Positions 4,523 through 37,500 of a stretch of DNA of 40,535 bases are shown one piece after another. The stretch spans positions 1 through 40,535 of IMG/VR virus record IMGVR_UViG_3300042401_000459. One strand, written 5' to 3'. Position numbers and translations under genes: made by a program. Below the pieces are notes generated by a model. It worked only from the letters and a program-made list of their open reading frames with translations, did not search any database and was not told where the DNA came from. This DNA is from a virus. Numbering within the stretch: position 1 is the stretch's first letter; each line of letters opens with the position of its first letter.

Positions 4523-5062
4523 ATGAATATTTTTTACCTTGACAATAACGTCAAAACTTGTGCCGAATATCACAACGACAAACATGTCGTCAAGATGATT
4601 CTAGAGTATGCACAACTACTTTCAACTGCTCATCGTGTCCTTGATGGTAATGAATACATTGATGCCTCTTCGGGGCGACGCATAAAACGTTGGCGTCTTG
4701 GCAATGAGAGTATGGAGAATATGCTTTACAAGGCATCGCACATTAACCATCCCAGTGCTATTTGGGTTCGGCAGTCTAATAATAATTACAATTGGTTGAT
4801 GTGTTTGTTTCAAGATCTTTTACAGGAATATACGCATCGCTATGGTAAGATCCATGCGACTGATCGCCTAGTATACTGGTTGCGCCAACCTCCTGCCAAT
4901 ATTCCTGTTGGTTATTTCACACAACCAACTCCTGCTATGCCTGATGAATACAAAGTTCCTGACTCTATTCAGTCGTATCGGAACTATTATATCGGTGCAA
5001 AAAAAACTATGGCAAAATGGAAAAATCGCCCGATTCCGGAGTGGTGGAGCGTCGCAAGTTAA
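4523..5062 (+). CDS. Conserved T4-like phage protein of unknown function, 179 aa
   Basis: Starts MNIFYLDNNVKTCAEYHNDKHVVKMILEYAQLL. From memory, an N-terminus of this kind (acidic residue, then CDKHVVKMI-like helix with His/Lys) recurs in marine T4-type phages as a conserved hypothetical protein. The conserved NDKHVVKM histidine and lysine, a later INHPSAIWVR segment and a C-terminal KKTMAKWKNR with PIPEWW look like functional surface elements, perhaps nucleic-acid binding, but no catalytic family is recognisable. It follows the 92-residue gene by 6 bases and precedes an intergenic region with a late-promoter-like octamer and a terminator. I give no functional name. Confidence 0.65.
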   Translation: MNIFYLDNNVKTCAEYHNDKHVVKMILEYAQLLSTAHRVLDGNEYIDASSGRRIKRWRLGNESMENMLYKASHINHPSAIWVRQSNNNYNWLMCLFQDLLQEYTHRYGKIHATDRLVYWLRQPPANIPVGYFTQPTPAMPDEYKVPDSIQSYRNYYIGAKKTMAKWKNRPIPEWWSVAS

Positions 5063-5068
5063 TAAATA
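5061..5068 (+). promoter_or_regulatory. Candidate late promoter (AATAAATA)
   Basis: A NATAAATA match overlapping the end of the preceding gene. It ends 5 bases before an ATG at 5074 that opens an 18-codon ORF, and a rho-independent terminator follows at 5131-5164. Together these would define a transcript of about 90 bases. Confidence 0.35.
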
Positions 5069-5073
5069 CTTGT

Positions 5074-5130
5074 ATGGAACAAACAAGAACTCCCATCCCG
5101 ATTTTAGATTCCGATGTCCTCGGAAATTAG
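5074..5130 (+). CDS. Possible 18-residue microprotein ORF
   Basis: The ORF reads M-E-Q-T-R-T-P-I-P-I-L-D-S-D-V-L-G-N and stops on the base before the terminator stem begins. It has no ribosome binding site, but an AATAAATA element sits 5 bases upstream, the same spacing as other start codons in this phage that lack a Shine-Dalgarno sequence. The 3' half overlaps a perfect 6-bp hairpin (5109-5125), so the transcript might instead be a structured small RNA. Low confidence either way. Confidence 0.2.
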   Translation: MEQTRTPIPILDSDVLGN

Positions 5131-5164
5131 AGGCGACTCCACCTTATTGTGGCGTCGCCTTTTT
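5131..5164 (+). terminator. Rho-independent terminator upstream of phoH
   Basis: The stem AGGCGAC-T-CCAC pairs with GTGG-C-GTCGCCT (11 pairs, one T/C mismatch), with loop CTTATT, and is followed by TTTT. It ends transcription of the upstream block about 30 bases before the phoH start codon. Confidence 0.85.
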
Positions 5165-5196
5165 CGTATCAACCCTAGAAAAATAAGGACTGCGAA

Positions 5197-5955
5197 ATGG
5201 CGCGAAGAAAACAAAATAACCTACAACTCGTCACCCCACCACCTGCCACATTTATTCAGGAGAGAAGTTCAAAATGCAAAGTTACACAAAATGATCTTAA
5301 AACAATCAATCCTCTAACTGAAAATCAAAGAAAGTTTTTTGAATTATTTGACAAGCAAGCATCCGCAGTCCTACTACATGGTGTCGCTGGCACTGGTAAA
5401 ACCTTTATCGCATTATATAAAGCACTTGAAGAAGTATTAGAAGATAACAATAAATTTGAGAGAGTGATCATTGTTCGTTCCGCTGTTCCTTCGCGTGAAA
5501 TTGGTCATCTTCCAGGAGATGAGAAAGAAAAGACAGAAGTTTACACGTTACCATATGTTGAAATTTGTGAAGATCTGTTTAATCATATTCAACCCTTTGT
5601 TCGTCTACAAGAACAAAAAGTTATTCACTTTTTAATCACATCATTCGTTCGTGGTATCACTCTAGACAATTCAATTGTAATCGTCGATGAATGTCAGAAT
5701 ATGACAGACATGGAACTCAATTCTGTTATGACTCGTATTGGCAAGAACTCAAAAGTTATTTTCTGCGGAGACTTCCGTCAAACTGACCTATATAAGAAGA
5801 ACGATATGTCTGGATTGCAAAAATTCCTTGCGATTACTGACATTATGCCATCGTTCAATACCATCGAATTTAATGTAGACGATATTGTTAGATCTAAACT
5901 GGTGAAAGAATATATAGTTGCACGGTTAGAATATGAGAGTCGTCACGCAGCATAG
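5197..5955 (+). CDS. phoH: PhoH-like ATPase
   Basis: A 252-residue P-loop protein. Walker A is GVAGTGKT at residues 62-69 and Walker B is IVIVDECQN with Asp164-Glu165, both in the arrangement of the PhoH family. That family is widespread in marine phages, and its biochemical role (an RNA helicase/NTPase-like activity has been proposed) is not settled. The ATG at 5197 has AAGGA 7 bases upstream. A terminator lies just upstream, so phoH must be read from its own promoter, which I could not identify, or by readthrough. The first about 30 residues are basic and low in complexity. The next gene follows after 12 bases with its own AAAGGA site. Confidence 0.92.
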   Translation: MARRKQNNLQLVTPPPATFIQERSSKCKVTQNDLKTINPLTENQRKFFELFDKQASAVLLHGVAGTGKTFIALYKALEEVLEDNNKFERVIIVRSAVPSREIGHLPGDEKEKTEVYTLPYVEICEDLFNHIQPFVRLQEQKVIHFLITSFVRGITLDNSIVIVDECQNMTDMELNSVMTRIGKNSKVIFCGDFRQTDLYKKNDMSGLQKFLAITDIMPSFNTIEFNVDDIVRSKLVKEYIVARLEYESRHAA

Positions 5956-5967
5956 AAAGGACAAAAT

Positions 5968-6258
5968 ATGTCACAATTTTTAGAAGATTTCCACGCATCG
6001 CTTGGGGATGCATTTACTGGTCTACCAACCCAACCAAAACAACTAGCACTAGATCGTCCGTCTCAGTTACAATCTCAACTGGATGGGTTAGACGCAGAAG
6101 ATCCCAACAACGCAGAGTTGATTGCAAAATTGAATAGAGAAATTGCAGAAGCAAATATCGTGGTTGAAGATGAAAATTATTCCGTACTAGAGAATGATGT
6201 TAATTACTTCTTCTTTTATCAATCTAAATTAAAAGAGTTTATTGACGAAAGGGCTTGA
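5968..6258 (+). CDS. Hypothetical protein, 96 aa, after phoH
   Basis: A small acidic protein beginning MSQFLEDFHASLG with a central helix-forming stretch rich in Asp, Glu, Asn and Leu, ending KLKEFIDERA. No known motif is seen. It has an AAAGGA ribosome binding site and follows phoH by 12 bases, so it is probably co-transcribed with it. Its stop codon lies within the -35 box of the next promoter (TTGACT at 6255-6260). Confidence 0.65.
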   Translation: MSQFLEDFHASLGDAFTGLPTQPKQLALDRPSQLQSQLDGLDAEDPNNAELIAKLNREIAEANIVVEDENYSVLENDVNYFFFYQSKLKEFIDERA

Positions 6259-6283
6259 CTTTTCTCCAAAATTATAGTATAAT
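6255..6283 (+). promoter_or_regulatory. Consensus sigma70 promoter
   Basis: TTGACT (6255-6260), a 17-base spacer, then TATAAT (6278-6283). This near-perfect host sigma70 promoter is expected to be used early. The predicted start of transcription is at about 6289-6290, which is the start codon of the downstream nuclease gene. Much of its sequence (TTGACTT...TATAGTATAA) recurs in front of the tmRNA gene. Confidence 0.85.
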
Positions 6284-6288
6284 GAATT

Positions 6289-6966
6289 ATGTTTAAAACG
6301 ATATATGATTATAAAGATTTCGCTCAGTCAACTACGAACGAAGATGGTAGCAGAGTTTACGTTAATGCCTCTGGTGTAGCGTATCCTTCTGCTACCACCG
6401 TTCTTTCTGTATTAAGTCGAGACGGAATTGCCAAATGGCGTGCTCGTGTTGGTGCTGAAGAAGCAGATAAAATCTCTAACAAGGCATCCACCCGTGGAAC
6501 CAAGATTCACTCTTTAACAGAGACATATCTCAAAAACGAAGATCTAAAAGAAGCGTATACGAGTACAAACGCATCTTTGCTTGACCTTGAGATGTTCAAG
6601 AAATTTCTACCCATTCTTGATCCCATCAGTAATATACATTGTCAAGAACTTGCTTTGTATAGCGACCATCTGCGCATGGCAGGTCGAGTTGACTGTATCG
6701 CCGAGTATAACGGTCAACGAGCAGTCATTGACTTTAAAACCTCAGGTAGACTGAAGAAGAAGGAACATATCAGTTCCTACTTTATGCAGACTGCTGCTTA
6801 TGCAATTATGTATGAAGAACGCACAAGTATTCCTGTTCCTAACCTTGTAATTCTGATCGCAGTTGAAGATGAAGAACCACAGGTGTTCATTGAGAAACGT
6901 GATAACTGGGCAAAGGAATTGCTTAGAACTCGTGATTATTATGAAAATGGTTACTATTTAACTTGA
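6289..6966 (+). CDS. PD-(D/E)XK nuclease (RecB/Cas4-like exonuclease)
   Basis: A 225-residue nuclease. After the YPSATTVLS opening motif common to this group come His74 (RGTKIHSLTE), Glu120, Asp135 in GRVDCIAE, and Asp148-Phe-Lys150 in VIDFKTS, which together form the PD-(D/E)XK metal site. Gln167-x3-Tyr171 (QTAAYA) is the RecB-family QxxxY motif. It probably degrades or processes DNA during phage replication or recombination. No ribosome binding site precedes the ATG, and the promoter TATAAT ends 5 bases before it, so the mRNA may be leaderless. No alternative start codon occurs in the first 35 codons. The tmRNA promoter overlaps its end. Confidence 0.85.
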   Translation: MFKTIYDYKDFAQSTTNEDGSRVYVNASGVAYPSATTVLSVLSRDGIAKWRARVGAEEADKISNKASTRGTKIHSLTETYLKNEDLKEAYTSTNASLLDLEMFKKFLPILDPISNIHCQELALYSDHLRMAGRVDCIAEYNGQRAVIDFKTSGRLKKKEHISSYFMQTAAYAIMYEERTSIPVPNLVILIAVEDEEPQVFIEKRDNWAKELLRTRDYYENGYYLT

Positions 6967-6993
6967 CTTCTGAAGAAAACTATAGTATAAATA
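6963..6993 (+). promoter_or_regulatory. Combined early (sigma70) and late promoter of the tmRNA gene
   Basis: TTGACT (6963-6968) with a 17-base spacer leads to TATAAA (6986-6991), and the same bases extend to TATAAATA (6986-6993), the T4 late -10 element. Both modes predict a start at about 6998-6999, just before the acceptor piece of the tmRNA. The sequence TTGACTT...TATAGTATAA is shared with the promoter at 6255. Confidence 0.7.
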
Positions 6994-6998
6994 TAATA

Positions 6999-7426
6999 TC
7001 AGTTGTTGACAAAGACTGAAAAGTTCTAAGGACTCGGGGGCAGTACCCGACGCCTCCACCATAGACACACAGATCAAGTCCTTAGCGGGATAAGATCAAA
7101 GTTTAATGATGTAAGTTTGGAAAACAGAAGTACAATGTTTTCTATAGACAGATCGGGCATTAAACACAATAAAGTCAACGACCGATACGGGCGTGTGTCT
7201 ATGATGGGGGCGAACTAGGATCGACTGGAACACAATAGGAAATTCGAGACTGATTGACTGGCAAAGTGCCATAAAAAGTAAATGCAAACGATAACGTTGC
7301 CTTTGCGCTTGCTGCGTAAGCAGTAAGTCATTGGGTTTTCGGCGGTTTCCCTCGAAACAGAATAAACCGCCAACCGTTCTAATTTAGAGTTGAAACGAGA
7401 CTATCAACGGTCTCAAAACCCTAAAT
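6999..7426 (+). ncRNA. ssrA: tmRNA, circularly permuted two-piece type
   Basis: Order in the gene is acceptor piece, intervening loop, coding piece. Acceptor piece: T-arm at 7034-7050 (TCGGG / 7-base loop / CCCGA), then CGCCTCC (7051-7057) and ACCA (7058-7061). Coding piece: GGGGGCG (7206-7212) pairs with CGCCTCC to give the 7-bp acceptor stem with G3-U70, the alanyl-tRNA synthetase identity pair; GAACTAGGATCGACTGG matches the conserved tmRNA 5' region. The resume codon GCA is at 7284; the tag ANDNVAFALAA ends with TAA at 7317-7319. Downstream are pseudoknot-capable repeats (7337-7370 and 7389-7414). Tagged proteins would be degraded through the LAA end. The permuted layout and ANDN tag are typical of Alphaproteobacteria. 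The outer ends are estimates. Confidence 0.92.
7061..7202 (+). repeat. Inverted repeat closing the tmRNA precursor loop
   Basis: ATAGACACAC (7061-7070) and GTGTGTCTAT (7193-7202) are perfect 10-base inverted repeats that continue the acceptor stem into the excised segment. In the precursor they would hold the two tmRNA pieces together before processing. The intervening segment (7062-7205, 144 bases) contains no convincing gene. Confidence 0.75.
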
Positions 7427-7510: not shown

Positions 7511-8110
7511 ATGCCTTCCTTTAATAAGAAGACATTGAAAATTCTTTCTTCAATTTTACTGATATTTGTAATATATTGTGTAGTTTTAAGTTATGCAAAA
7601 GAAAGAATCGAAGACACCGCAATGGCACACACTGTCGGTGGATATGAAAAAGTCCAAAGCGTAAAAAAACAACAAGAAGAAATAATCCAAAAAAACATTA
7701 AAAAAGAAAAAAGGAAGTACCTGTCAAGCAACGCAAAAGCAATAACATGCCTTGCTGATAATATTTACTACGAGGCAGGTAATGAACCAAGGAATGGTAA
7801 AATCGCGGTTGCTGGTGTAACAATGAATCGTGCACGCAATCCCAAATTCCCATCAAACGTTTGCTCTGTCGTTTATCAGAGAACAAGTAGGGTCTGTCAG
7901 TTTAGTTGGACATGTATGCGCCGACCTGCTAAAGACCCAGTATTATATGCTGAAGCAAAAGATATTGCGAAAAAAGTATTGACTTCCGAGATCAATACGC
8001 GTATAGTTGTTAATAAGGACGTTCTATTCTACCACGCAGACTATGTTAGTCCAGGGTGGAAGTTACAGAGGGTTACTAAAATCGGTAGACATATTTTTTA
8101 CGCAGGATAG
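7511..8110 (+). CDS. SleB-type cell wall hydrolase (membrane-anchored endolysin)
   Basis: A 199-residue protein. Residues 10-28 form a hydrophobic segment after a basic N-terminus (signal-anchor or SAR-type signal), followed by a Lys/Glu-rich stalk to about residue 70. The catalytic domain starts with CLADNIYYEAGNEP, where Glu88 in YYEA is the conserved residue of the SleB/Hydrolase_2 family. GKIAVAGVTMNRA and CQFSWTCM are also family motifs. The family cleaves peptidoglycan glycan strands. The N-terminal segment suggests export by the host Sec system, as for SAR endolysins. Starts at ATG 7511 with GAGGA 7 bases upstream. It sits just after the tmRNA gene, and gp33 starts 3 bases after its stop. 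Confidence 0.85.
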   Translation: MPSFNKKTLKILSSILLIFVIYCVVLSYAKERIEDTAMAHTVGGYEKVQSVKKQQEEIIQKNIKKEKRKYLSSNAKAITCLADNIYYEAGNEPRNGKIAVAGVTMNRARNPKFPSNVCSVVYQRTSRVCQFSWTCMRRPAKDPVLYAEAKDIAKKVLTSEINTRIVVNKDVLFYHADYVSPGWKLQRVTKIGRHIFYAG

Positions 8111-10100: not shown

Positions 10101-10131
10101 AAGGGGGACTTTTTCAAGTCCCCCTTTTTTT
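10101..10131 (+). terminator. Terminator between gp32 and the convergent tape measure gene
   Basis: AAGGGGGACTT (10101-10111), loop TTTC, AAGTCCCCCTT (10116-10126), then a run of T to 10131: a perfect 11-bp stem. It overlaps the stop codon of the leftward tape measure gene and, being nearly symmetrical with an A-rich left side, can serve both strands. Confidence 0.95.
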
Positions 10132-12772
10132 ATCCGAAAGATCTTCTATTCTGGAATCGTTGCCAACTACTGTCTTCAGTTCTGACTGTATCCATTGGTA
10201 GAGAACCACCACCATTATTCTGTTGTGGTGCAGCAGGTTGCTGAATTACGGTTGGTGGCGGGACATTAATAACTGGTGCAGTATCTTCCTTTGCACTTTC
10301 AGTCATTTCTTTTAGATTTGCTGCAGCATTATTGGATCCTGTTTCCAAATTACTCTTAGTAACTGGATTGGTCTTAATCACACCAGCACTATTCGGTGAG
10401 AATAACTCAGGACCATTTTCTCCAACCAGATAAGAACCATTAGCAGACACTGGTCCACCTTCTGCTCTTGCTCCATCAATAGGTTCGATTGTTCCCTCGG
10501 TTGAATCTTCGTTGCCTGCTCTGGAAATATCTCTTGCTGCAAGTCCAGCATCAATAGCAACCGATGCAGCAGTTCCCAATCCAGGAAGTGTAGAAGCGAC
10601 ACCAGACGCAACTTCACCAGCAGCACCAGCAAAGTCTCCTTGTAGTGCTCGCATCGCACCAAATCCGAGACCAGCAACTGCACCAATGATTGGAATTTTC
10701 TTCAGCAAGGATTTACCAACTGCTTTAGCACCAATTTTAGCTACTGCTTTGCCGCCAATTTTACTTGTTGCTTTGGCAATTCCTTTACCAGCAGAAGATG
10801 CCATTGCTTTCTCAGCAACTTTTCCGATGGCACCCTTTGCCGAACCGAGCATACCCATACCACTTTGGGCAACTTTACCGAGGGTGCTTCCCTTGGCGAC
10901 TTCTTTTCCGACAAATCCTGATGCTTTACCAAGCATCCCTTTGCCTTTTTCGACAACTCCCGCAGCACGATCTCTAAACACTTTACCGATTCGAGACTGT
11001 TTTGCAGCACCAGCAAGAGGGTTACCATTTTTGTCAAGCAGTTGTTGTGCGCCAAGACCTCTGTTCTTAATAAGGTCAGTCGCCTTTCCACGTAATGTAT
11101 TTGCACGATCAGAGATAAAGTCAGTTGCCTTACTCTTAATTGCGTTTACACGACTGGTAACTTTCTCTGCAGCACCTTCAACAAAGTTGGTTCCTTTGCT
11201 GAATACACCCTCTGCCTTTTCAGCAAAGTTGGAAAGCCCAGGAGAATATCTTTGATTCTTCAGACCCTTCAATATTCCTTCGCCGCCAGATTTAAATCCA
11301 GCATACCCAGCAGCGATTCCGCCAAGTAGAGAAGATCCTCCTTCACCCTGTGCATCTGCATCACCTTGGGTACCTGCTGGTCCCTGCCCACCATTTCCAG
11401 TTGCAGGAGTCTCTGGTGTTACTCTAGAATTTGAGGATTCTGTTCCTCCGATAACCACCTTTGGTATAGATTTTTCTTTTGCCTCTACCTTCGCAGATGC
11501 CTTTTCAGCATTTTGTTTATCAATATTTTCCGCACGTTTTTGGGCATCAGCAGATGCTTGCTCTGCTTCTACTTCTGCTACTTTGTTACGATTCATAACT
11601 TCTTTTACGTTGGAACTTGGATCCAACTGCTTTTTACCTGAAGGTGCAACTCCAGCACGTTTTTTATCGAACAACTTGTCTTTGATTTCTATGATGATGT
11701 CTTTGATTTCATTTAAGATAGATGCAACATCATTCTTATCATCGGATGCAATTCCACCCCTAGCAGACTGAATCTTTACCTTTGGTTGTTGAGATTCTTT
11801 ATACTTTGTTTCAAGAGTTTTATTAATCTCTACCATCGAAACAGGTTTACCTTCTTTTCTATACGAGATATCTTTCTCGGAAGATGGTTTGATATCCTGC
11901 TGCTCTAGAATTTTTTTCTGTTCTTCGGTAAGATTAGACATCTTATCGACAGATTTGAATTCTGCTATAGACTGTTTTGTAGATTGAGAAGTAGACTGGT
12001 TTGTTTTCGTCTTACTATTAATTGCGTCAGAGAACATTTTCTTCAACTGTTCTACTTCTGAGACCTTTTCGTTAGATTGGTTTACCTCGTTGCGAATTTC
12101 TTCTCGGCGAGATTCTTGAGAGTTGAATATGCTACCAAGAACTCCGCTTTGAGGTGTCAATCCTCTTTTGAATCCACCCATGAATTCACTACCAGCGTTT
12201 TTAAATCCTTCTTTGAACCCTTTGGTTGGCGTGCCTTCTCTTCCAGGTTCTTTTGAGTTTCCAAAAAATTGTTGCTTCAATCTATTGCCGAATGTATCAT
12301 CTTCTCCTTTTAGAGTCAATCCTTCCGACTTAAATCGTTCATCCAGTGTTTGATTTTGAAGATTCTTTCCAATATCACCGAATTCTTTTGGTCCATCACT
12401 CTCGCTTCTAGCAATCATTTTTGCTGCGAGATCGTTAATATCTTTTAGAGAGTTTTTAAATTCTTCGACAGTCTTGAATTGCAATTTTGTGATTGCATCC
12501 AAGGTATCTTCTAAAAGTTTCTTATCTTGTTTCTCTAAAGATCTTAGTGTGTCGTCAGTATTCTTTTCAATAGATTCAACAAAACTATTGACTAATCTTG
12601 CGGATGCTTGTATATCTGCAGGTCTGTTTTTGTTGAGATCAAGAAGTTTGCGAATTTCAGAAAACTGTTTGTCCCTGTCGCCAGATTGCATTGGTTTTGC
12701 CCCAGAACTTGAATTGTTCTTGGCGGTTTCTATTACCTTGGCAAATCTTTCCGAAGTGGACTTAGGTTCCAT
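10130..12772 (-). CDS. 29: Tape measure protein (gp29 position)
   Basis: An 880-residue protein read leftward. The N-terminal half (to about residue 420) is charged, helical and coiled-coil-like, with low-complexity Lys/Glu/Ser/Gln. The C-terminal half is Gly/Ala-rich with hydrophobic segments (IPIIGAVAGLGFGAMRAL and neighbours), as in tape measure proteins that insert in the host membrane. Near the C-terminus is EGGPVSANGSYLVGENGPELFSP, a signature of phage tape measure proteins. It is longer than T4 gp29 (about 590), implying a longer tail. It starts with a TAATG overlap with the gp51-like frame and follows gp26 and that frame, the standard order of chaperones then tape measure. Confidence 0.8.
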   Translation of the reverse strand: MEPKSTSERFAKVIETAKNNSSSGAKPMQSGDRDKQFSEIRKLLDLNKNRPADIQASARLVNSFVESIEKNTDDTLRSLEKQDKKLLEDTLDAITKLQFKTVEEFKNSLKDINDLAAKMIARSESDGPKEFGDIGKNLQNQTLDERFKSEGLTLKGEDDTFGNRLKQQFFGNSKEPGREGTPTKGFKEGFKNAGSEFMGGFKRGLTPQSGVLGSIFNSQESRREEIRNEVNQSNEKVSEVEQLKKMFSDAINSKTKTNQSTSQSTKQSIAEFKSVDKMSNLTEEQKKILEQQDIKPSSEKDISYRKEGKPVSMVEINKTLETKYKESQQPKVKIQSARGGIASDDKNDVASILNEIKDIIIEIKDKLFDKKRAGVAPSGKKQLDPSSNVKEVMNRNKVAEVEAEQASADAQKRAENIDKQNAEKASAKVEAKEKSIPKVVIGGTESSNSRVTPETPATGNGGQGPAGTQGDADAQGEGGSSLLGGIAAGYAGFKSGGEGILKGLKNQRYSPGLSNFAEKAEGVFSKGTNFVEGAAEKVTSRVNAIKSKATDFISDRANTLRGKATDLIKNRGLGAQQLLDKNGNPLAGAAKQSRIGKVFRDRAAGVVEKGKGMLGKASGFVGKEVAKGSTLGKVAQSGMGMLGSAKGAIGKVAEKAMASSAGKGIAKATSKIGGKAVAKIGAKAVGKSLLKKIPIIGAVAGLGFGAMRALQGDFAGAAGEVASGVASTLPGLGTAASVAIDAGLAARDISRAGNEDSTEGTIEPIDGARAEGGPVSANGSYLVGENGPELFSPNSAGVIKTNPVTKSNLETGSNNAAANLKEMTESAKEDTAPVINVPPPTVIQQPAAPQQNNGGGSLPMDTVRTEDSSWQRFQNRRSFG

Positions 12773-17080: not shown

Positions 17081-19096
17081 ATGGCAGTAGATTCTAATTC
17101 AAAATCATTATCAAATCCTGGTGACGTAACATTTAAGACTGTTGAAATTCAAAGTGTCAACGGTGACATTCTTGACATCAAAAATTTTGTCGTCGAACTA
17201 AACATCTATGAGGATATATTCTCAAACGCACTACAAGGTGTGTTGATGGTTGTAGATTCGAAAGAACTTATATCTGGGTTGCCTCTAGTCGGCGACGAAC
17301 TGTTGAATATTTGGATACAAACTCCAACCTTTGGTGATGGATACGGCGACAGTATCAAAAAAACTTTCTCAATTTATTCTATTAAGAATAGAATGCTTAA
17401 TGCTGACCGTGAGCAAATGTACTCATTATATTTTTGTTCTATGGAAGCAGTCAGCGATAATATCACACAAGTCAGTAAAAAGTATGAGGGTACTACAGAC
17501 GAAATTGCAGACAAACTGTATACGGAGTTTTTAAAACAAAAACGCTGTTTCGGCGGTATCGATAATAAAGACGAAACCCCAATGATTATCGCAGATACTC
17601 CACATGAAGGTAAGATTGCTTTCGTAGCAAATATGTGGTCTCCATTTCGCTGTCTCAATTATGTTGCGCAGAGATCTATCGGAGCAAAACAAAAAGCGCC
17701 AAGTTTCTTATTCTATGAAACCAAAACAGGATTTTACTTCACTTCTATTGACAATTTAATCAAGAATCAGTTAGATGACAGTTCTGTATATGCAGAATAT
17801 GTGTATTTACCGAAACCTGTTGATCCTACAATCGAGTTGGAAGATAAAGAAACAATACATACGGTGAAACCTGGATTAGACAAAGCATTTAGTACTGTAT
17901 CAGATATTCGTTTCAGTGAACAGGTTGATATTCTGAAGTCACAAGACAATGGAAGATTTGCCAGCACTACCACAGTTTTTGATATTATGATCAAACAAGC
18001 AACGAATGCCCCGCACGATTATTCATATTCATATCCTGATATTGTTCATATGGAAAATTACAGAATTGAAAATGGTAAGGCAACATTTGATGAAGGAGCA
18101 AAGGATAATATGACATATCCTGCGAACGTAACTCGTTCAGCATTGTCTAAGCGTTTCTTCCGTCCCGTGCACAGAAAAGTTCTTACTACGAGCGACGACG
18201 ATTTACTAGACTATTCACCAGATCTATGGTTGGGCATGCGCCAAAGCGTTCTTGAAGATATTTCTGGATTGCGAATGCACATCACGGTTCCTGGAAGAAC
18301 GGATGCTGAGGTTGGTAAGATTATCAATTTCAAATATCCTAAAGTTGGAGATGGCGCAGATAAATCAGATCCAAAGAACCAATGGGATCCGTTCCTTTCT
18401 GGTGTTTGGATGATCACTGCTATTCACCATAAAATTACTCCAGTCGCGCACAATATGATTTTGGAAATTGCCAAGGATTCGTTCCATACAGCGTTCCAAG
18501 AAATTGATCGTGCACCACCACCGAATCCTCCTCCTCCTGCTGCTGCGGATGATCCCGAAAATTCTGGTGAACAATCTGGTGAACAAGCACAACAACAAAA
18601 CGGTGCAACCCCAGCGTCTTCTGGACCAGTAAATAAACAAGGGTGGGTTCACCCAACTGGTGGCATAGGACGAATTACCAGTGCTTATGGTGACACTAGT
18701 CGACCGAAAGGAGGTTCGAACCCGCATTTGGGTATGGATATTGGAAGGCAACTTTCTCCTGCAAAGGAGATTAATGGACAAGTTGTTTATTCTGTCTTAG
18801 ACGGTGTAGTTCTCTTGGCAGGATGGCAATCATCAGATCACAAGTCGGGTGGCGGGGTTCGTGTGCTCATCCAGCATAAAGACAGAAATCTGACATCCTT
18901 TTATGGACATTTAAAGGAAGGTTCTTTGATGGTTAAGGTCGGAGATAAGGTAAAGGCTGGACAACCAATTGGGCGTGTCAATAACTCTGGATCCTCTACA
19001 GCTGCCCACTTACACTTTCAGTTGCATAAAGGACTTAATGGTGCTGGTCAAAAAATTGACCCGCTTCCTTATCTGGCTCCATGGAAGGGGCGGTAA
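17081..19096 (+). CDS. 27: Baseplate hub protein gp27 fused to M23 (LytM) endopeptidase
   Basis: A 671-residue protein. Residues 1 to about 470 form a gp27-like hub: NFVVELNIYEDIFSNALQGVLMVVDS at the start, then FLFYETKTGFYFTSIDNLI, RFFRPVHRKVL and SGVWMITAIHHKITPVAHNM. A Pro/Gln/Ser linker (about residues 475-525) leads to a C-terminal M23 metallopeptidase with HLGMD (His549, Asp553), YGHL (His610) and HLHF (His643, His645), the complete zinc and catalytic set. M23 enzymes cut peptide crossbridges in peptidoglycan. T4 gp27 (about 391) has no such domain. The stop overlaps an ATG (TAATGA) of a short duplicated start region before the gp5 gene. Confidence 0.85.
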   Translation: MAVDSNSKSLSNPGDVTFKTVEIQSVNGDILDIKNFVVELNIYEDIFSNALQGVLMVVDSKELISGLPLVGDELLNIWIQTPTFGDGYGDSIKKTFSIYSIKNRMLNADREQMYSLYFCSMEAVSDNITQVSKKYEGTTDEIADKLYTEFLKQKRCFGGIDNKDETPMIIADTPHEGKIAFVANMWSPFRCLNYVAQRSIGAKQKAPSFLFYETKTGFYFTSIDNLIKNQLDDSSVYAEYVYLPKPVDPTIELEDKETIHTVKPGLDKAFSTVSDIRFSEQVDILKSQDNGRFASTTTVFDIMIKQATNAPHDYSYSYPDIVHMENYRIENGKATFDEGAKDNMTYPANVTRSALSKRFFRPVHRKVLTTSDDDLLDYSPDLWLGMRQSVLEDISGLRMHITVPGRTDAEVGKIINFKYPKVGDGADKSDPKNQWDPFLSGVWMITAIHHKITPVAHNMILEIAKDSFHTAFQEIDRAPPPNPPPPAAADDPENSGEQSGEQAQQQNGATPASSGPVNKQGWVHPTGGIGRITSAYGDTSRPKGGSNPHLGMDIGRQLSPAKEINGQVVYSVLDGVVLLAGWQSSDHKSGGGVRVLIQHKDRNLTSFYGHLKEGSLMVKVGDKVKAGQPIGRVNNSGSSTAAHLHFQLHKGLNGAGQKIDPLPYLAPWKGR

Positions 19097-19153
19097 TGAC
19101 AGATAATTTCTTTTCAAAATGGTGGCAGTAATGACAGATAATTTCTTTTCAAA
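19093..19153 (+). repeat. Direct repeat duplicating the gp5 start region
   Basis: The 26 bases at 19093-19118 and 19128-19153 are identical (GTA then ATGACAGATAATTTCTTT and onward), with copies offset by 35 bases. Copy 1 opens an 11-codon ORF (MTDNFFSKWWQ) whose stop overlaps the real gp5 ATG at 19131. It could act as a coupling leader peptide or be a recent slip duplication. Confidence 0.8.
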
Positions 19154-20261
19154 TAATGATTCAAACTTCTATTGGTTCTTCGGATGTGTCGAGGATCGTG
19201 ATGATCCGATGCGTATTGGTCGAGTAAAACTGCGAATTCTCGGTTATCATACTGATGATAAAGAGCAGTTACCAACTGATGATCTTCCATGGGCGATGCC
19301 AATTATGCCAGCAAACAGTGCCAGTACTTCTGGTATTGGTTGGTCGCCGACTGGTCCAGTAGAAGGTACGTGGGTGTGGGGATTCTTTATGGATGGTGCA
19401 GAAGGGCAACAACCTGCATTCGTTGGAACAATTAACGCTGTTCCTGAGAGTAACGGTAGTGGCGGTGGTAGTGGAGATGGATCTGGGAACTCACCTACCT
19501 CTGGTGGTAGTGGAGGCGCAGGTGATGGTGGTAAAGTGGATCCTGCTGAATTGGCAAAACTCAGCAATTGTGATTGTACCACGTTAGCAAAATCCCAGAT
19601 GGCGAGGGGTAATAAAGCAAATATGCAAGTAATCATCAAGGCAGGGCAAAGCGCAGGGTATCCACCTAAAGCGATTGCAGGATTGCTTGCTATAGCAGGA
19701 GTTGAATGCGGATTTGTTCCTGTAAACGAGGATACTCGATATACAAATGTATCTGTTTTGAAAAAAGAATTTAGTAATGTATATAACCATCCAAATCCAG
19801 ATGCATTTGCACGTGCTATAGTTGCTGGTGGAAGTGTCGCTTGTGCAAATGCTATTTACGGTGGACGTGGAGGTAATGCAAAAACCATTCCTAATACGGG
19901 CAGTTTGGTTTCTACCGACAAAAACCAAGATGGATACAAATATCGCGGAAGAGGATTTAACCAATTAACATTCAAGAGTAATTATGCCGCCTTGGGTAAA
20001 GCAATTGGTATGGGTAATCAATTGGTAGCAAATCCTGATCTGGTAAATACTATTGAAGTTGCAGCAAAGGTTCTAACTCAATTTTACTTCACGGCAGGAC
20101 TGAAGAAATCACAATTAAATGACGATAACATTGGTGGTAGATTGATTAAATTGACAGGTAATGATATGAAAGGTGGTAAAGGTCCAACGAGTCATGAACA
20201 GAAAGCTGCATTATATAAGTGCTTTATGGAAAACTATACTAAGAACGGGAATTTTATCTAA
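19131..20261 (+). CDS. 5: Spike protein gp5 N-part: OB-fold plus GH19-type lysozyme
   Basis: 376 residues from the ATG at 19131 (an in-frame ATG at 19119 would add four). Residues about 10-105 are the gp5 OB-fold (FFGCVEDRDDPMRIGRVKLRILGYHTDD, LPTDDLPWAMPI). A Gly/Ser linker (about 105-140) leads to a GH19 muramidase/chitinase-like domain: LLAIAGVECGF with the likely catalytic Glu, NEDTRYT, and YKYRGRGFNQLTFKSNYAAL. It takes the place of the unrelated lysozyme domain of T4 gp5. The beta-helical part of gp5 is missing here and is encoded by the next gene, which starts at the last base of this stop codon (TAATG). Confidence 0.85.
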   Translation: MTDNFFSNNDSNFYWFFGCVEDRDDPMRIGRVKLRILGYHTDDKEQLPTDDLPWAMPIMPANSASTSGIGWSPTGPVEGTWVWGFFMDGAEGQQPAFVGTINAVPESNGSGGGSGDGSGNSPTSGGSGGAGDGGKVDPAELAKLSNCDCTTLAKSQMARGNKANMQVIIKAGQSAGYPPKAIAGLLAIAGVECGFVPVNEDTRYTNVSVLKKEFSNVYNHPNPDAFARAIVAGGSVACANAIYGGRGGNAKTIPNTGSLVSTDKNQDGYKYRGRGFNQLTFKSNYAALGKAIGMGNQLVANPDLVNTIEVAAKVLTQFYFTAGLKKSQLNDDNIGGRLIKLTGNDMKGGKGPTSHEQKAALYKCFMENYTKNGNFI

Positions 20262-23200
20262 TGTTGGATGTTCTGCGCGATCAAGACTTATCTAAAATTC
20301 TAGATAATACCAAAATAAGTAAGGTTCTCTCTGAGATAGAAGTCAAGCAATTGATGGGATCCATCGCACAAGATGTGGGTGGTGGTGCACATTCTACGAT
20401 TTCAGACAGCGGTAAGGTTGGAGCATACGGGTTTAATCTTGAAGCACTACAAACAGTTGGTGCAGTGGCACCTAATGCTGTCGAAAAAACATTAGAGAAT
20501 ATCAAAAAGAATATTCCTGGTATTTCAATACTGACAAAGAAAACTTGGGTTAGAGCACAGGCATCTGATCCTCTAGCGAAGTTTGGTCTTGGTGGATTGA
20601 TTGGTAAAAATCTCGGTAAAAACTTTGCGCTTGATGCTCTTAATAAATTGGGACTTCCGATTCCAACGAATATTGGTAACGTTGGTAATAATCTAAACTT
20701 TGCTGCTCTCGCTGATCCAAAAATTTGGACTGCAAAACTAGGCACCGCTGCAGAAACTGCAAATAAGGTTGTTAATGCGGCAAATGGTTCTGTTGGGTCC
20801 GCAGTTTCTTCAGTTAAAAATACTCTTTCTAAAGAAGTGTCTGGTCTTACAACTAAACTTGCAGTAGTAGGAACACCAACAAAATCGAATGAAGTATTAA
20901 GCACTACAAATAAAATGGTTAAGACCATAACAAAAACACTTACTTCGTCTGCAGTAAAATCTGCGACCGAATTAATTACCAATTCAGTTAAACTTCCATC
21001 CGCGACTAAGGGTGCATTTGAATTGGTTTCCAAACAGATTGATACAAAAACATCTGCGGTTAATGAGGCAATTGATGTTTCTTTTGATCCATTCAGAATA
21101 GTACCTTCTATTGAAAACCTAACAACTGCAGTGTCTGCAGTTACCTCGTTGGTTAATACACACGAAACAGAAATCACAGAAATTATTGATGATGCTCACA
21201 TCGGACAGATTACTAATCTTGGTGGTGGTGGAAGTGGATTTCTAAACGATCCATTCGCGCAAAACAACGCAATGGTTTCTCTGCTCGATAGAAATATTAA
21301 ATCTCTTCTATCTTCAAAGGCGATTTCATTAGACTCTCCCAAAGATGTTATCTTAGGAATGTTGTCAGTTGCTAATGGTCAGGGAATTGACACCGCGATT
21401 AAGTTTGCTAATGGATTGATTAAGACAAGTTCTAATGGGAAAACCTCCAACGACTTCTTTGGTGTTGGGTTTTCTGCAAATAAATTATTTGACGAACTCT
21501 TGGCAATAAGACCTGGATCCCCAACAATCTCTGCACCAAATCCTGCAACACTTGCTCAGGCAAAACCAACTGTTGCCAACCAACCGACAAACGAAGGACT
21601 GCGAGATAGCAATCCTCGTATTGGATATAAAGATCCAAATAACGTTTATCCCAAGAAGGAATATCTCGAAGCAGGTAATGGTGACGTTAATGCGCTTGCT
21701 GTTGGAAAAAATCCAGGAGAAACTAAAGCACTACCACAGGATCAAACGATTCATGGTCAACATGATGCGCAGAGAACCACGTCGAAACCTATTGCGGGTA
21801 GAACAGGAGAATCTGTTTCTCAACCGAAGTCTGCCTTTGCTGCTGAGTATCCATACAACCATACATACCAGAGTGAATCTGGACACACTATGGAATTCGA
21901 TGATACTCCAAATGCAGAACGTGTTTCGTTAAACCACAAATCAGGGTCATTCCTAGAAATGCGCCCAGATGGTTCACAGGTAAATAAAATTATCGGTGAC
22001 GGTTATACAGTTATCGATCGCAATGGTGTTATTACCATCGAGGGTAAGGCAAATGTTCACGTTGGTGGTAGTTGTAATATTTACGTAGCAAACAACTGTA
22101 ATCTTACAGTTGGGGGTAATACAAATATTGACACACACGGAAACGTCGACTGGAAAGTCGGTGGCAACATGAACCTTGCGGTCAAAGGAACTTTCGCCAC
22201 TCGCGTCGATGGCGATTATTCTATGGATGTGAGCGGTGATATTGATTCAGCAACTTCTAAATCATATAGACTTGGTTCTGCAACAAGCGTTGACATCCTC
22301 TCAAATGGTAAAATCAATATCGATGCGTCCTCTGATATTAACATTAAGTCTGACGCGAAGGCGAACGTCTTTGGCGCAGAGACAAACATCAAGGCATCTG
22401 GTAAGACAAATATCCAAGCAGGTTCTACTATGAACGTCAAGGGTGGTGGTGCTACCAATGTTGATGGTGCAATCATCACAGTAAATCCTGGAAGCGCAGG
22501 TTCAGCAGTAACAGCATCAGATGGGACTCCTCCTGATATTACTATTGTCGCAGATCCAGTGTCACCGATGAATCCGAGCGAACCAGAATTTGTTGGTGGT
22601 AATGGTGGTGTTTCTCCAGAAGAAGCAAAGGGTATGGATTATGATGGCGAAGATGGCATTGCAGATAGAAACGCTGCTGGTATTGAAGATAGTGCGACTC
22701 CAGGAGAAGAAGGATCTAGTAATTTAGTAAGTGGAAGGGTTGCACCTACTGCATGTAATGTAACCAAGTCTGGAGTAAAACTTCCAGATATTAACATCTC
22801 AAATGGTATTAACTATGGAATGAAAATCTCTGATAAGTTTACTCTGAAAGACGTTATGGTAAAGGGTAAACTACGAAATTATGGTGGATTCAGTAAAGCA
22901 GACATGATTGCAAACATGCGCTGCTTGGCAGTAAACTGCTTGGATCCAATCAAAACTAAGTTCCCTGGAATGTATTTCACGTCAGGATTTAGAGATTATA
23001 TTCCATCTGGTGGTTCTACGACCTCGCAGCACATGCTCGGGCAGGCAGTGGATATGAAATTCAATGGAATGACAAAGGGTCAATACCACGATGTAATCGT
23101 CCCGTGGATTGTCAAGAACGTTCCATATGACCAACTTCTTCTTGAGTATCTACCATCTGGCGGACATTGGATTCATATCTCGTTTAAAGAAAAAGGCAAC

Positions 23201-23269
23201 AGATATCTGCACTTTACCATGTATAATCATAAACGTGTTTCGGCACCTGGAACTTTCAAAAAATACTAA
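20261..23269 (+). CDS. Spike protein: gp5C-like beta-helix with C-terminal M15 peptidase
   Basis: 1002 residues. The first about 430 are Ala/Ser/Thr/Lys-rich helical sequence of unknown fold. Residues about 545-745 are a repetitive beta-helix (MEFDDTPNAERVSLNHKSG, MRPDGSQVNKIIGDGYTVIDRNGVITIEG, then many xVxVxGxxNxxV turns), as in gp5C/VgrG needles. The C-terminal about 150 residues are a peptidase M15 domain: SQHMLGQAVDMKF (His924, Asp931) and GGHWIHISF (His972), the three zinc ligands. M15 enzymes cut stem peptides, usually at D-Ala bonds. Together with the preceding gene it corresponds to a split and enlarged T4 gp5. Its late position and coupling by TAATG suggest a 1:1 partner. Confidence 0.85.
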   Translation: MLDVLRDQDLSKILDNTKISKVLSEIEVKQLMGSIAQDVGGGAHSTISDSGKVGAYGFNLEALQTVGAVAPNAVEKTLENIKKNIPGISILTKKTWVRAQASDPLAKFGLGGLIGKNLGKNFALDALNKLGLPIPTNIGNVGNNLNFAALADPKIWTAKLGTAAETANKVVNAANGSVGSAVSSVKNTLSKEVSGLTTKLAVVGTPTKSNEVLSTTNKMVKTITKTLTSSAVKSATELITNSVKLPSATKGAFELVSKQIDTKTSAVNEAIDVSFDPFRIVPSIENLTTAVSAVTSLVNTHETEITEIIDDAHIGQITNLGGGGSGFLNDPFAQNNAMVSLLDRNIKSLLSSKAISLDSPKDVILGMLSVANGQGIDTAIKFANGLIKTSSNGKTSNDFFGVGFSANKLFDELLAIRPGSPTISAPNPATLAQAKPTVANQPTNEGLRDSNPRIGYKDPNNVYPKKEYLEAGNGDVNALAVGKNPGETKALPQDQTIHGQHDAQRTTSKPIAGRTGESVSQPKSAFAAEYPYNHTYQSESGHTMEFDDTPNAERVSLNHKSGSFLEMRPDGSQVNKIIGDGYTVIDRNGVITIEGKANVHVGGSCNIYVANNCNLTVGGNTNIDTHGNVDWKVGGNMNLAVKGTFATRVDGDYSMDVSGDIDSATSKSYRLGSATSVDILSNGKINIDASSDINIKSDAKANVFGAETNIKASGKTNIQAGSTMNVKGGGATNVDGAIITVNPGSAGSAVTASDGTPPDITIVADPVSPMNPSEPEFVGGNGGVSPEEAKGMDYDGEDGIADRNAAGIEDSATPGEEGSSNLVSGRVAPTACNVTKSGVKLPDINISNGINYGMKISDKFTLKDVMVKGKLRNYGGFSKADMIANMRCLAVNCLDPIKTKFPGMYFTSGFRDYIPSGGSTTSQHMLGQAVDMKFNGMTKGQYHDVIVPWIVKNVPYDQLLLEYLPSGGHWIHISFKEKGNRYLHFTMYNHKRVSAPGTFKKY

Positions 23270-31524: not shown

Positions 31525-34500
31525 ATGGCACTCGACTTAAATTTATCTCCGTATTATGACGACTTCAATGAATCTAAAAAGTTTCATAGAATTCTCTTCA
31601 AACCAGGATATGCTGTTCAGGCACGCGAACTTACGCAACTACAGTCTATCCTGCAAAATCAGGTTAATAAGTTTGGTGATCATATTTTCAAGAATGGCGC
31701 GATCGTTTCGGGTTGCGACGTTCAGATTGATAATGAATTATCATATGTAAAGATTGATGCAAACGCTGCGGGAAATGCGTCACTTCCATCGTATATCGGT
31801 GCTACAGTTGAGGGTAGTAACGGTCTTAAAGCGGTAATCGTAGATGCAGTCGATGCAACAGCATCTGATCCAGGAACTCTTTACCTAAGATATACCAGTG
31901 GTGATGGTAGCACAAATACCGTTCACTTCATTGGAACAGAAACTCTTACAGTTGTGTCAGATAATGTATCTTATGATGGGGATGAATTTACTGTTCAAGC
32001 ACTTGAAGTTGACACCGAAGTATTGACAAATAACTATTGGGGTCGTGCTACTCGTATGACTCTTGGTGACGGTATTCTTTATATCGACGGTAAGTTTGTT
32101 CTCCATACTTCTCAGACAATCTATCTTTCAAAGTATACACACAATCCATCAGGTAGTGTGTGTGTTGCAGCAGACGAACAAAATATAGACTCTGGTGATG
32201 ATGAAACTCTGCTTGATCCAGCACAGGGCACATATAATTTTACTGCTCCTGGTGCAGATAGATACTATGTCTCAACTTTGTTGAAGTTCTTTGCAGCTGG
32301 TACTGTAATCGATGACGGATATTATGAGGTTGCTACTGTCGTTCTTGGTGGACTCAATAGAACACATACTTCTGACATCTATGCTAAACTCGGCGACAAT
32401 CTAGCACGTAGAACATATGACGAGTCGGGTAACTATACAGTAAAGTCATTCCCTGTTCTGGTTCGTGAACACCTTGATGACACTACAAACAATGGACTCT
32501 ATACTGAGGAACTTGGTGGTAGTACTGATCTGCTTGCTGTCGGTTTAGAGGCAGGCAAGGCATATGTTCGCGGTTATGAGTATGAAACTCGCCAGACAGA
32601 ATATGCCTTTACTGAAAAAGGTATCGACACTGTAAAGAAATATAGCGTTCCTATTAGTTCTGCCTATGGTAACTATGTTGTTGTGACAGACTATAAGGGT
32701 GTTCTGCCACTAGATGGTTCTAAGATTTCTCTGCGTGATGCAGCGCAAAACGGTGTTTCTGGTTCACAGACAGCAGCACAAGGTAGCGAAATCGGTAGCG
32801 CACGTGTTCGTCACATCGAGTATGTGAGTGGAACTGTTGGATCTGCTGCAGCAGTTTATAACATCTATGTCTATGATGTTCAAATGACAACAGGCAACTT
32901 CGCTGATGTTGATGGTTTATATTACTCAACTAGCGGAACCAAGGATGGTTATGCCGACGTTGTAGAATCTGTATTGAAGTCGGCACAATACAATAAACTT
33001 CTCTATAGAATGCCATCGCGTGCTACTAAAACAATCAGACCTGCTCCTTCTGGTAACTACGAAACATCTCTATATTATACTAAAGTGTATACGGGTGTTT
33101 CTATTACTTCAGGCGCTGGTAGTATTACTCTGTCTGGTAATGAGTTCTTTATTCAAAATACCGATGATGCGATTGAGTCTTATATCAACAACAATCTGTT
33201 GATGGTAAGAGACACTGATGGTGAAATTATTGATCTGACGACAGGCACAGTTGATGCACTAGATGCTTCTGCTCAAATTCTCAGTTTTACTGCTCTAGAA
33301 GACAGTGGTAGTTCTGTATTCACTGATACCGTTACCATATATGCTACGGTTGAAGTAAACCTCGCGGCACCTCTTGTCAAAACTCTTAACAGAGCGAGAT
33401 ATGTTGCGTTTGACCTGTCTCATAAAATTCTTGCTTCTGCAGTAGATGTTTCCACTGAAACATTTACATATACTGCTCACGGATATTCTTCTGGTGATGC
33501 TGTAGTATATTACAATGGTGGCGGTACAAGTGTTGCAGGATTGACAAGTGGAACTACATATTACGTAATTTCTGCTGGATTAACTGCTAATGCCTTTAGA
33601 GTATCAGCATCATCAGGCGGTAGTGCGGTTAATCTTACAGGAACAGGTAACGATCTTCAGTACTTCTTCAAGGTCGGTGGCGGAACGTCATTAAATCTTG
33701 GTGTTGCAGATATATTCTCTGTTGATGCTGTTTATAAGGCAGCAGTTGGAACTTCTTACTCAAATATCGTAACAACTGGCACGGATATTGCTTCACAATA
33801 TACTTTAGATAATGGTCAGCGTGATAATACGTACGAACTCGGTAAACTTACTGCAGTCAATGGGGCTGCTTCTCTCGCTGGATTCAATCTAGTTGCTAAG
33901 ATTAGTTACTTCACTCATACGGAAACTGCATCTACTGCTGGTTACTTCGCAGTTGATTCGTATCCTGTTAACGACGCAGTTGTTGGTGGTGGTAATATCA
34001 AAACATACGAGATTCCGATCTACACATCGACTACAACTGGTGAGTCGTATGATCTTCGTGATACCCTCGACTTTAGAATAAGAATTACTGACTCGATTAC
34101 TCCTGTTACCTTTGCGTCTATCGCTTCGGTTCCAGTAAATCCTGTAGTATCGACAACAGTTGATCCTGCTTCTTTTGGTCTCACTATTCCTAGACCCGAA
34201 CAAGAAATCAATATCAATTACGAATATTATGTTGGTCGTAAAGATAAGATCGTATTGGATGACAATGGTGTGTTCTCTGCTGTAAGCGGAACTCCATCAC
34301 TGACTCCAGTTGAACCGCTTACTCCTGAAAACGCAATGTGTATTGCCATTGTTACAATCCCACCATTTCCATCTCTTGCTCCTAATGTTGCTAAGTCAAC
34401 TGGACGCAATGAATATGGTGTAACTTTCCGCACTCTTGATAATCGTCGTTACACAATGCGTGATATCGGCGGAATTGCGCAACGTATTACTCGTTTGGAA

Positions 34501-37500
34501 TACTACACTTCTCTGACTCTTCTCGAAAAGTCAACTGAATCACTGTTCATTCCTAGTGCAACAGACCCAACGCTAAATAGATTTAAGCATGGTATTCTGG
34601 TAGATGCGTTTACTGGTCACAACGTTGGCAATCCAAAAGATCTCAACTATAGTTGCTCTATTGACGCAATCAATCAAGAACTTCGTCCGTTCTTTAATAT
34701 TGAGAATGTCGACCTGATTTTTGATTCGGTAAATTCTCTTGGTGTAAAGAAAACAGGTGATCTATTAACACTTCCATATAACTATACAGTTCTTACTCAG
34801 AATACATTTGCTTCTAAGTCAAGAAACTGTGTAGGCGATCTGCTGTTCTCTTTCATTGGTGACATGACTCTCGATCCTCCTGTTGATAACTGGACTGATA
34901 CTGCACAAAGTCCCGATCTCGCTGTAAACTTCGACGGTAACTACGACAACTTTGCTGCGATGGCAAATTCTTGGGGGACTCAGTGGAATGATTGGCAGGA
35001 TATCGTAACTGGTCGTTCTGTCTCCACTGACACAACCAGTACTGGTGGACAGACTCGCGTATCTGGTGATACGTTATTCCAAGATCAAATTCAGATTTCA
35101 ACTACTACCACTACACAGCGCCAAACTCGCCAAGGTGTGACTATGACTGTCACACCCGAAACTATCACAAGAGATCTTGGTGATCGTGTAACAAATGCTT
35201 CTATCATTCCATATATGAGAAGCGTTACAATTACTGTTAAGTGCAAGAGACTGAAACCAGCGACTAGAATTTATCCATTCTTCGACGGTATTGATGTTAC
35301 AGCACATTGTCGTCCACTATTAAGTGCTGCCCTTGCAGCATCACCAACCGATCCCGCAGAATATTCTCAATATGCTATCACAAATGGTACGGGTGATTAT
35401 GGTGATTCGTTAATTACTGATGCGGACGGAGAACTTGCAATTCAGTTTAGAATTCCTGCTGGTACGTTTAGAACAGGAACTAAGAATTTCAGAGTTTGCG
35501 ATGATCCGTTTAACAGATCTGCATTCGTCACAACCTCTGCGACAAATTCGTTCTCTGCCAATGGTCTCTCGCAAGTTGTCCAAGGAACTGTTGTTTCTAC
35601 AAGAGAGGCAAATGTTGCGTTTAATACTGTAAGCGATTCTCGCTCTGTAACTGAAAGCAATACTACTGCAAATCGTATTGGTGAAAGAGCAGTCGGGGTT
35701 GTTCAGAATACCACGGTAAACAATACGTTTACTACAGTTAATAATACCACAAACGTTTCTAATACTACCAATAACACAACTGTTGTTAATGAAACCAATG
35801 TCATCAACACTGTGGTTAATGCCATTACGAATGTAAATGAAACTAATATTACCAATAATCCAGTTATTGTTATTGAGAGAGAAATTCCAGTTGTAGTACT
35901 TGTAACGCCACCTGAGGAACTACCACCACCGCCAACAGTTCCTGAGGACTCAGGTCCACCTTCAGAAGCAGTCTTTATTGAACCAGGTGACTTTGGCGAT
36001 TTTGGGATCGACATGCTTGGAAATAATTGGGGCACTTCTCTGCGGGGAGGAGTCTTTTCCATGGGAGGAATGGATCCACTCGCACAAAGTTTCTTTGTCA
36101 ATGGAATGCCATTCGGAACATTTGTAACTGGTCTGGACGTATACTTCAGAACTAAGGGAACTGCGCCAATCACCCTGCAACTTCGTGAGATGATTAATGG
36201 ATTCCCGACAGAGAAGGTTCTTCCTTTCGGCGAAGTTACCAAAACTGCAGACGAGGTTGCCACTTCGACTGAGGATGCCGATGGTGTTGTGACATTCTCT
36301 GACACGAATTTTACATTCCCATCGCCTGTTTATCTACAGAATAATACGGAATACTGTTTCGTTCTTCTACCTGCTGGTAACGATCCTGGATATACTGCAT
36401 GGGTTTCGGAAATCGGCGAAAATGAAGTAGGTACTTCTAAGAGAATTTCAGAGCAACCAAATGTTGGTATGTTGTTTACTTCAGCAAACAATCGCACTTG
36501 GAGCGAAAAGCAAGCAGAAGATATGAAGTTTACTTTGTATCGCGCAATCTTTGATACATCCGTTATCTCGACTGCTAAGTTCCAGAATTCTAACTATGAC
36601 TATCTTGCGCTCTCGGATGTTATGTATCTTGCTGCTGATGATACTGTTTCGGCATCCAAGTTTGCTGCAGGCGAGAAGGTTTACGTAGAAGGATCTGAGT
36701 CAACTAAGTATGGTTATGTAAAGCAATACGATCCTCTGTATAATGTTCTGAAGATTGTCGTTCAAGAAGGCGCATTCGCTGCTGCTGATACAATCACCAA
36801 CGGGACAATTTACACTACCGTCGCTGAAGTTGAAAATAAACTGATCAACTCTATCCAAACCAATATCGGTTATATGGACTTCACACCAACTACAGGCGTC
36901 TGGAGTTATGCTAAAACTGCAACTGGTGCTGCTGCTGGAGGAACTACGTTCGAACGTCTAACGTTTGGTGAAACAAATGACATCCCAACAGAAGCAGCGA
37001 TTTATTCGAAGTCAAATGAGACTGCTGATCTTGATGGGGATAAGTCACTAAACATTCGTTTTGGTATGAAGACAATGACTGACACGGTTTCTCCTGTGAT
37101 CGATCTTAGAAAGTGTTCGTTGATCTGTATTTCAAATTATATTAACGCTTATGAAGCTGCTGCCGCAATTGTAACTACTGCTGGTACGTTGACGGGTCTA
37201 TCATATGCAACTACAACAGCAGGCATTCCTGGCACTCTTGCTGCTACTGTAGCAACAAGCGGAACTGCTGGTGAGTTTACTTGTGGTGCATCAACTCTAG
37301 CAGTTGGTAGTCGTGTTACAATTACTGGTACTCTTGCAGGTACAGGCGCTATTACTGGTTATACAACTGGAACAACATATAAGGTTTCTGCTGTGACTGG
37401 GTCATCACCGAACGTTACTGGATTTACTCTAACGACTACTGGTACAAGCGAAGAGAACAACGCTGGAACTGCAAGTTCTAAGTATATCTCGCGTCGGGTT

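Follow-up and report, generated by a model that had tools for sequence, protein, structure and literature searches.

How many wall-cutting enzymes are carried by the tail tip encoded at this locus, and would they serve entry? In T4 the hub is a trimer of gp27 and the spike a trimer of gp5, and gp5, which holds a single lysozyme (GH24), is cleaved between that lysozyme and the beta-helix. A sequence-only reading of the window (the whole stretch of DNA analysed here; its 40,535 nt, or 40.5 kb, are a fragment from an uncultured T4-like virus of aquatic origin) claimed three hydrolases of different specificity classes on homologues of this device. Our analysis supports that claim, with active sites that are intact and under purifying selection and activities that are predicted. 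We consider it probable that the locus encodes a T4-type hub and spike whose three catalytic slots open the wall at entry.

The window contains a T4-type baseplate set, with homologues of hub, tail-tube, DNA end protector and head closure proteins on one strand and, on the opposite strand, gp48, gp53, gp27, gp5 and gp25 in that order, a T4-like neighbourhood. The hub gene and its parts are as follows:

17081-19096, plus strand: gene for gp27 with an M23 domain
17081..18490, plus strand: gp27-like baseplate hub domain, residues 1-470 (phrog_350)
18491..18646, plus strand: Pro/Gln-rich linker from hub to M23, residues 471-522 (58-94% identity)
18647..19093, plus strand: M23 (LytM-type) zinc endopeptidase domain, residues 523-671 (PF01551)

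Membership of the gp27 family is indicated by a phrog_350 match covering residues 8-470 (E 3.1e-74). PF01551 matches residues 565-661 above the Pfam cut-off (E 4.3e-20), and the domain finds LytM and lysostaphin in the PDB. The HxxxD and HxH zinc/catalytic motifs are present (H549, D553, H610, H643, H645) and these five residues are identical in 15/15 aligned homologues. Many IMG/VR contigs belong to the clade of the window, and all 18 distinct complete gp27-M23 proteins of this clade keep the motifs. The M23 domain of gp27 is a predicted zinc endopeptidase with an intact active site, and the sequence-only reading had the gene, its coordinates and His549, Asp553, His643 and His645 right.

The next gene, also recognised correctly in that reading with its position and its OB-fold and GH19 domains, encodes the first part of gp5:

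19097..19155, plus strand: tandem duplication of about 33-35 bp in the gp5 start region (TAATGACAGATAATTTCTTTTCAAA...)
19119-20261, plus strand: gene for gp5 OB-fold and GH19 (380-aa ORF)
19131..19442, plus strand: gp5 N-terminal OB domain (PF06714; T4 gp5 1pdl)
19443..19544, plus strand: Gly/Ser linker (GSGGGSGDGSGNSPTSGG...), exchange point of catalytic domains
19545..20258, plus strand: GH19 domain (PF00182; phrog_181; 8p8e alignment)

The true start of gp5 is probably the ATG at 19131 rather than the annotated 19119, because relatives begin with MTDN and the tandem duplication creates an upstream ATG. This duplication, which is missing from a close relative (L006), is possibly a recombination scar. 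The OB domain matches PF06714 (Gp5_OB, E 2.6e-15) and T4 gp5 (1pdl, E 1e-20), whilst the GH19 domain matches PF00182 above the cut-off (E 2.8e-8) and phrog_181 (E 1.9e-23). Alignment with 8p8e places the catalytic glutamates at E196 and E204 in the numbering of the 380-aa ORF, and both are kept in 9/9 aligned GH19 versions. GH19 domains can have chitin as well as peptidoglycan as their substrate. On one contig (L060, 2242-3298, plus strand) OB and GH19 lie in separate ORFs; a further split, a frameshift or an error in the contig would each account for this.

The remainder of gp5 is found in a second gene:

20261-23269, plus strand: gene for gp5 beta-helix and M15
20261..21610, plus strand: N-terminal extension of the spike, predicted to be helical (about the first 450-500 residues)
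21611..22495, plus strand: gp5-type spike region, triple-stranded beta-helix (phrog_430; T4 gp5; 9f4a)
22811..23266, plus strand: C-terminal M15 zinc peptidase domain of the spike, with H924, D931, E962 and H972 (phrog_894; 1LBU fold)

The stop codon of the first gene and the start codon of the second overlap at 20261 (TAATG). A programmed frameshift joining OB-GH19 to helix-M15 was considered as the main reading and rejected, because of this stop-start overlap and because versions carrying a GH104 domain have a 67-bp gap between the OB-chain and helix-chain genes. The beta-helix is supported by phrog_430 (residues 503-751, E 6.8e-53) and by T4 gp5 and 9f4a in the PDB (1.9e-24). The window proteins therefore possess the OB domain and triple beta-helix of the T4 type, but in two ORFs and with GH19 after the OB fold, where T4 has a single chain with GH24 between OB and helix. 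On these comparisons gp5 of the window is a divergent homologue of the T4 hub/spike protein and not identical to it. The beta-helix and M15 domain of the sequence-only reading were borne out, although it left the N-terminal extension unmentioned. This extension had no homologue outside the clade among 50,697 phage records, and its AlphaFold model, from a single sequence without alignment, reached a pLDDT of 37, too low to be of use. A different extension of ~200-270 residues precedes the helix in six other split spikes (L139, L144, L162, L169, L183, L188).

The Pfam match of the M15 domain is weak (PF08291, E 0.028, below the cut-off) and the domain was therefore examined separately by PHROG match, residues and fold. 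It matches phrog_894 (endolysin, E 8.9e-19), and H924, D931, E962, W970 and H972 are invariant in 8 aligned spike proteins that are 28-94% identical to that of the window. The zinc ligands are likewise kept wherever a spike protein of the clade extends across the site. An AlphaFold model of residues 822-1002 (14 sequences; pLDDT 73.6, pTM 0.76) had as its best match among the aligned PDB chains the Zn DD-peptidase 1LBU (Z 9.0, 127 residues, 3.3 A), the next chains scoring Z 6.4 and less. Foldseek alone had given weak matches to hedgehog domains (E 0.02 and above) before VIA-align gave 1LBU; the hedgehog-domain fold is common to M15 peptidases. Significant viral structure matches to the model were, where named, gp5 or M15 proteins. 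The domain thus combines the SxHxxGxAxD motif and second His zinc ligand with a DD-peptidase/hedgehog fold, in agreement with the M15 assignment and the His924, Asp931 and His972 first proposed. Catalytic residues of M23, GH19 and M15 alike are kept in the aligned homologues. Judged from these alignments, conservation of the three active sites is far beyond chance.

Comparisons of homologous domains gave dN well below dS. For M15, dN was 0-0.13 against a dS of 0.03-1.38, with dN below dS in every comparison, and the M15 tip is under purifying selection. Identity to the window is unevenly spread along the proteins of the clade: it is 89-99% in gp27 and drops to 36-81% in M23, and many M23 alleles are only 34-60% identical to one another. 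The discordance runs both ways. Loci L092 and L101 share 99% identity in gp27 and 53% in M23, and L105 and L085 share 99% and 59%, whereas L105 and L101 share 88% in gp27 and 96% in M23. Recombination is therefore required, and relaxed selection as the only cause of M23 divergence was ruled out by the same discordance. In the second protein the OB domain is 93-98% identical to that of the window, whereas the catalytic part is a GH19 of 98%, 76-84% or about 50% identity, or an unrelated domain of the lambda-R type (GH104), which matches lambda lysozyme 1AM7 (E 2.5e-26) and is preceded by an OB domain of 93-96% identity. Nucleotide identity falls at the linkers, in most relatives steeply at 18491-18646, and recovers at the next structural domain. 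The M15 domain is 80-100% identical. Taken together, these comparisons indicate that catalytic cassettes are exchanged in the M23 and GH slots, by recombination at low-complexity linkers, and that the M15 tip is comparatively fixed; relatives in the clade keep the three catalytic positions with the enzymes swapped in two. In a locus with a single-chain gp5 (L109, 4828-7752, plus strand), OB and helix flank a muramidase-like domain (RYQMIP motif), and the C-terminus is M15-like; by its position the muramidase-like domain is a further occupant of the OB slot.

Going by homology to T4, three gp27 chains would form the hub, with three OB chains below it and three beta-helix chains as the spike, placing up to nine predicted active sites near the tube axis. 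Once the sheath contracts the spike would pass the outer membrane and M15, at the end of the beta-helix, would reach the peptidoglycan first. GH19 beside the OB fold would then cut glycan strands and M23, on flexible gp27 linkers, would cut peptide cross-links, so that together the three would make a local hole for the tube. We infer this order (M15, GH19, M23) from the expected domain positions from tip to hub. The split of the gp5 gene would be the genetic counterpart of T4 gp5 cleavage and, as a guess, the N-terminal extension of the helix chain may replace the lost covalent link to the OB protein. Against this stands the quite unlikely reading that not all three enzymes act at entry, and that at least one domain, most likely M23, is cleaved off or is mainly structural or peptidoglycan-binding. 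For Tal2009 and TP901-1 Tal, a fraction of virions has indeed lost the C-terminal hydrolase domain (PMC6115969). Cleavage could fall in the long low-complexity linkers (18491-18646 and 19443-19544), and of the three hub domains of Anabaena myophage A-1(L) two were shown to be active (PMC10966104). However, the catalytic residues are invariant in the 18 distinct hub proteins despite the divergence of the M23 alleles (34-60%), which argues for selected catalysis.

Other wall hydrolases occur in the window and in a 150-kb relative (G001):

7511..8110, plus strand (window): SleB-type cell wall hydrolase with an N-terminal hydrophobic segment (PF07486, Hydrolase_2, E 1.1e-22)
11547-12722, minus strand (L116, 150-kb relative): endolysin of 391 aa, M15 and GH19

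With the SleB-type enzyme, whose homologue in the 150-kb relative is 87% identical, the earlier count of four wall hydrolases of four families in the window holds. It is probably a lysis or periplasmic enzyme rather than a part of the hub, and no link to the virion was seen in our analysis. A fifth hydrolase was considered on the tape measure (10130-12772), where PHROG 'peptidase/endolysin' matches fall at residues 616-751, and was rejected; the matches lie in a Gly/Ala-rich hydrophobic stretch in which no catalytic motif, Pfam match or credible PDB match was found. Elsewhere in the window, a carbamoyltransferase gene (2799-4223, plus strand) with radical SAM/SPASM genes upstream (15-1897) possibly forms a sugar or peptide modification cassette, and a 2116-aa protein (31525-37875, plus strand) matches phrog_358 and phrog_877, parts of it recurring in the first gene of the 150-kb relative and in its gene at 94551-96095.

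The separate endolysin raises the alternative that the spike acquired M15 and GH19 from an endolysin used in lysis and keeps them as redundant duplicates. We regard this as rather doubtful: the endolysin is only 32% identical to the domains of the window, pointing to an old split, and an endolysin origin would in any case be compatible with function at entry. Moreover, many T4-like lineages have a gp5 tipped with M15, and the tip therefore probably predates the clade. Loci were collected via the M15 domain and scanned with HMMs built for this study, so the frequencies are biased. Among these M15-selected loci, many T4-like contigs have M15 after the beta-helix on the same chain, and division of gp5 between separate OB and helix chains is similarly widespread; OB, GH19, helix and M15 in one chain were found in Synechococcus phage BUCT-ZZ01 and three further contigs. 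By contrast, M23 was on none of 38 full-length gp27 proteins from outside the clade (402-490 residues long), and no phage record among 50,697 matched at least 80% of the gp27-M23 fusion. It is therefore the hub peptidase that is specific to the clade.

The major capsid protein of the 150-kb relative is closest to those of OM43 phage Melnitz (69.7%) and SAR11 phage HTVC008M (67.8%), and two tmRNA genes were found:

6959-7371, plus strand (window): permuted (two-piece) alphaproteobacterial-type tmRNA, tag ANDNVAFALAA (alpha_tmRNA, 117 bits), between a PD-(D/E)XK nuclease gene and the SleB gene
10442-10712, minus strand (L113, 150-kb relative): permuted tmRNA with the same tag, in a genome with seven tRNAs

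The tmRNA suggests, without proving, an alphaproteobacterial host, because permuted tmRNAs with SAR11 affinity have been published for this phage group, including cases in which the host is a bacterium other than SAR11 (PMC9004378). Neither matches identifying a host nor the tag pattern were found in 84,980 bacterial species genomes. psbA was not found in three relatives searched, at least two of which are fragments, and there is thus no support for a cyanophage. The sequence-only reading had proposed a thick or chemically protected wall, or a broad host range. Catalytic cassettes swapped between near-identical hubs would suit differing peptidoglycan, but adaptation of the enzyme set to such a wall or range is very improbable given the SAR11 and OM43 hosts of the closest isolates and the alphaproteobacterial-type tmRNA, and the proposal went unsupported. 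SAR11 and OM43 bacteria have ordinary Gram-negative envelopes and no hydrolase domain was seen in gp27 and gp5 of HTVC008M; the number of tail hydrolases is therefore without relation to wall thickness in this group. More tentatively, and as a possibility we would not favour strongly, the tail tip may be modular, with two swappable slots (GH19, divergent GH19 or lambda-R-type GH104 at the OB fold, and M23 on the hub) and a nearly fixed M15, swapping serving to tune entry to differences in host peptidoglycan. If so, virion hydrolases would be a determinant of host range, like tail fibres. Tail-tip wall hydrolases are usually viewed as a single structural add-on, and the natural near-isogenic pairs differing in one enzyme make it testable whether they only open the wall or have a role in host range.

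With T4 gp27-gp5 (PDB 1K28) the window shares the gp27 hub, OB fold, glycan-cutting domain and triple beta-helix, as well as the gene order around gp48, gp53 and gp25. It differs in having GH19 and two genes in place of one GH24 lysozyme on a single, later-cleaved chain, and in the 450-500-residue extension, the M15 at the spike end and the M23 on gp27. The contrast with the one lysozyme of T4 drawn in the sequence-only reading holds, but comparison with T4 alone overstates the novelty, as BUCT-ZZ01, Cr30 and Melnitz each have two hydrolase domains on gp5. BUCT-ZZ01 gp5 (ON615601) has the same OB, GH19, beta-helix and M15, but in one 939-aa chain beside a 412-aa gp27 without M23. Methylophilales phage Melnitz resembles the window in its split gp5 with a second helix-M15 chain, its related capsid protein and its permuted tmRNA, but has a VanY-type domain instead of GH19 on the OB chain (L073, 3877-4917, with M15 on the spike chain at 4917-6920) and a gp27 without M23; its description gives gp67 as the sole lysin-like gene and leaves the VanY and M15 domains unmentioned (PMC9004378). 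In A-1(L), whose host is a (Gram-negative) cyanobacterium, several wall-cutting activities also lie at the tail tip; the lysozyme, endoglucanase and C-terminal peptidase domains are all on one hub protein (gp15) in another order, the endoglucanase and peptidase being active on host cells, whereas the spike gp25 lacks such domains (PMC10966104). Tal2009 of lactococcal phage Tuc2009 is likewise a gp27-like tail hub protein with a C-terminal M23 peptidase, but in a siphophage of a Gram-positive host and without a gp5-type spike (PMC6115969). The gp27-M23 protein has this Tal arrangement, a gp27-like N-terminus with a C-terminal hydrolase, within a contractile-tail gene set, and from its domains it is predicted to work like a Tal without being classed as one. 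The papers searched held no report of M23 fused to a T4-type gp27, nor of M15 at the end of a gp5 spike, common as the latter is in T4-like phages. Three things distinguish this tail tip: its combination of hydrolases, an M23 domain fused to the hub protein of a T4-like phage, and catalytic cassettes that are swapped. It elaborates on a device already known and is no machine of a new kind.
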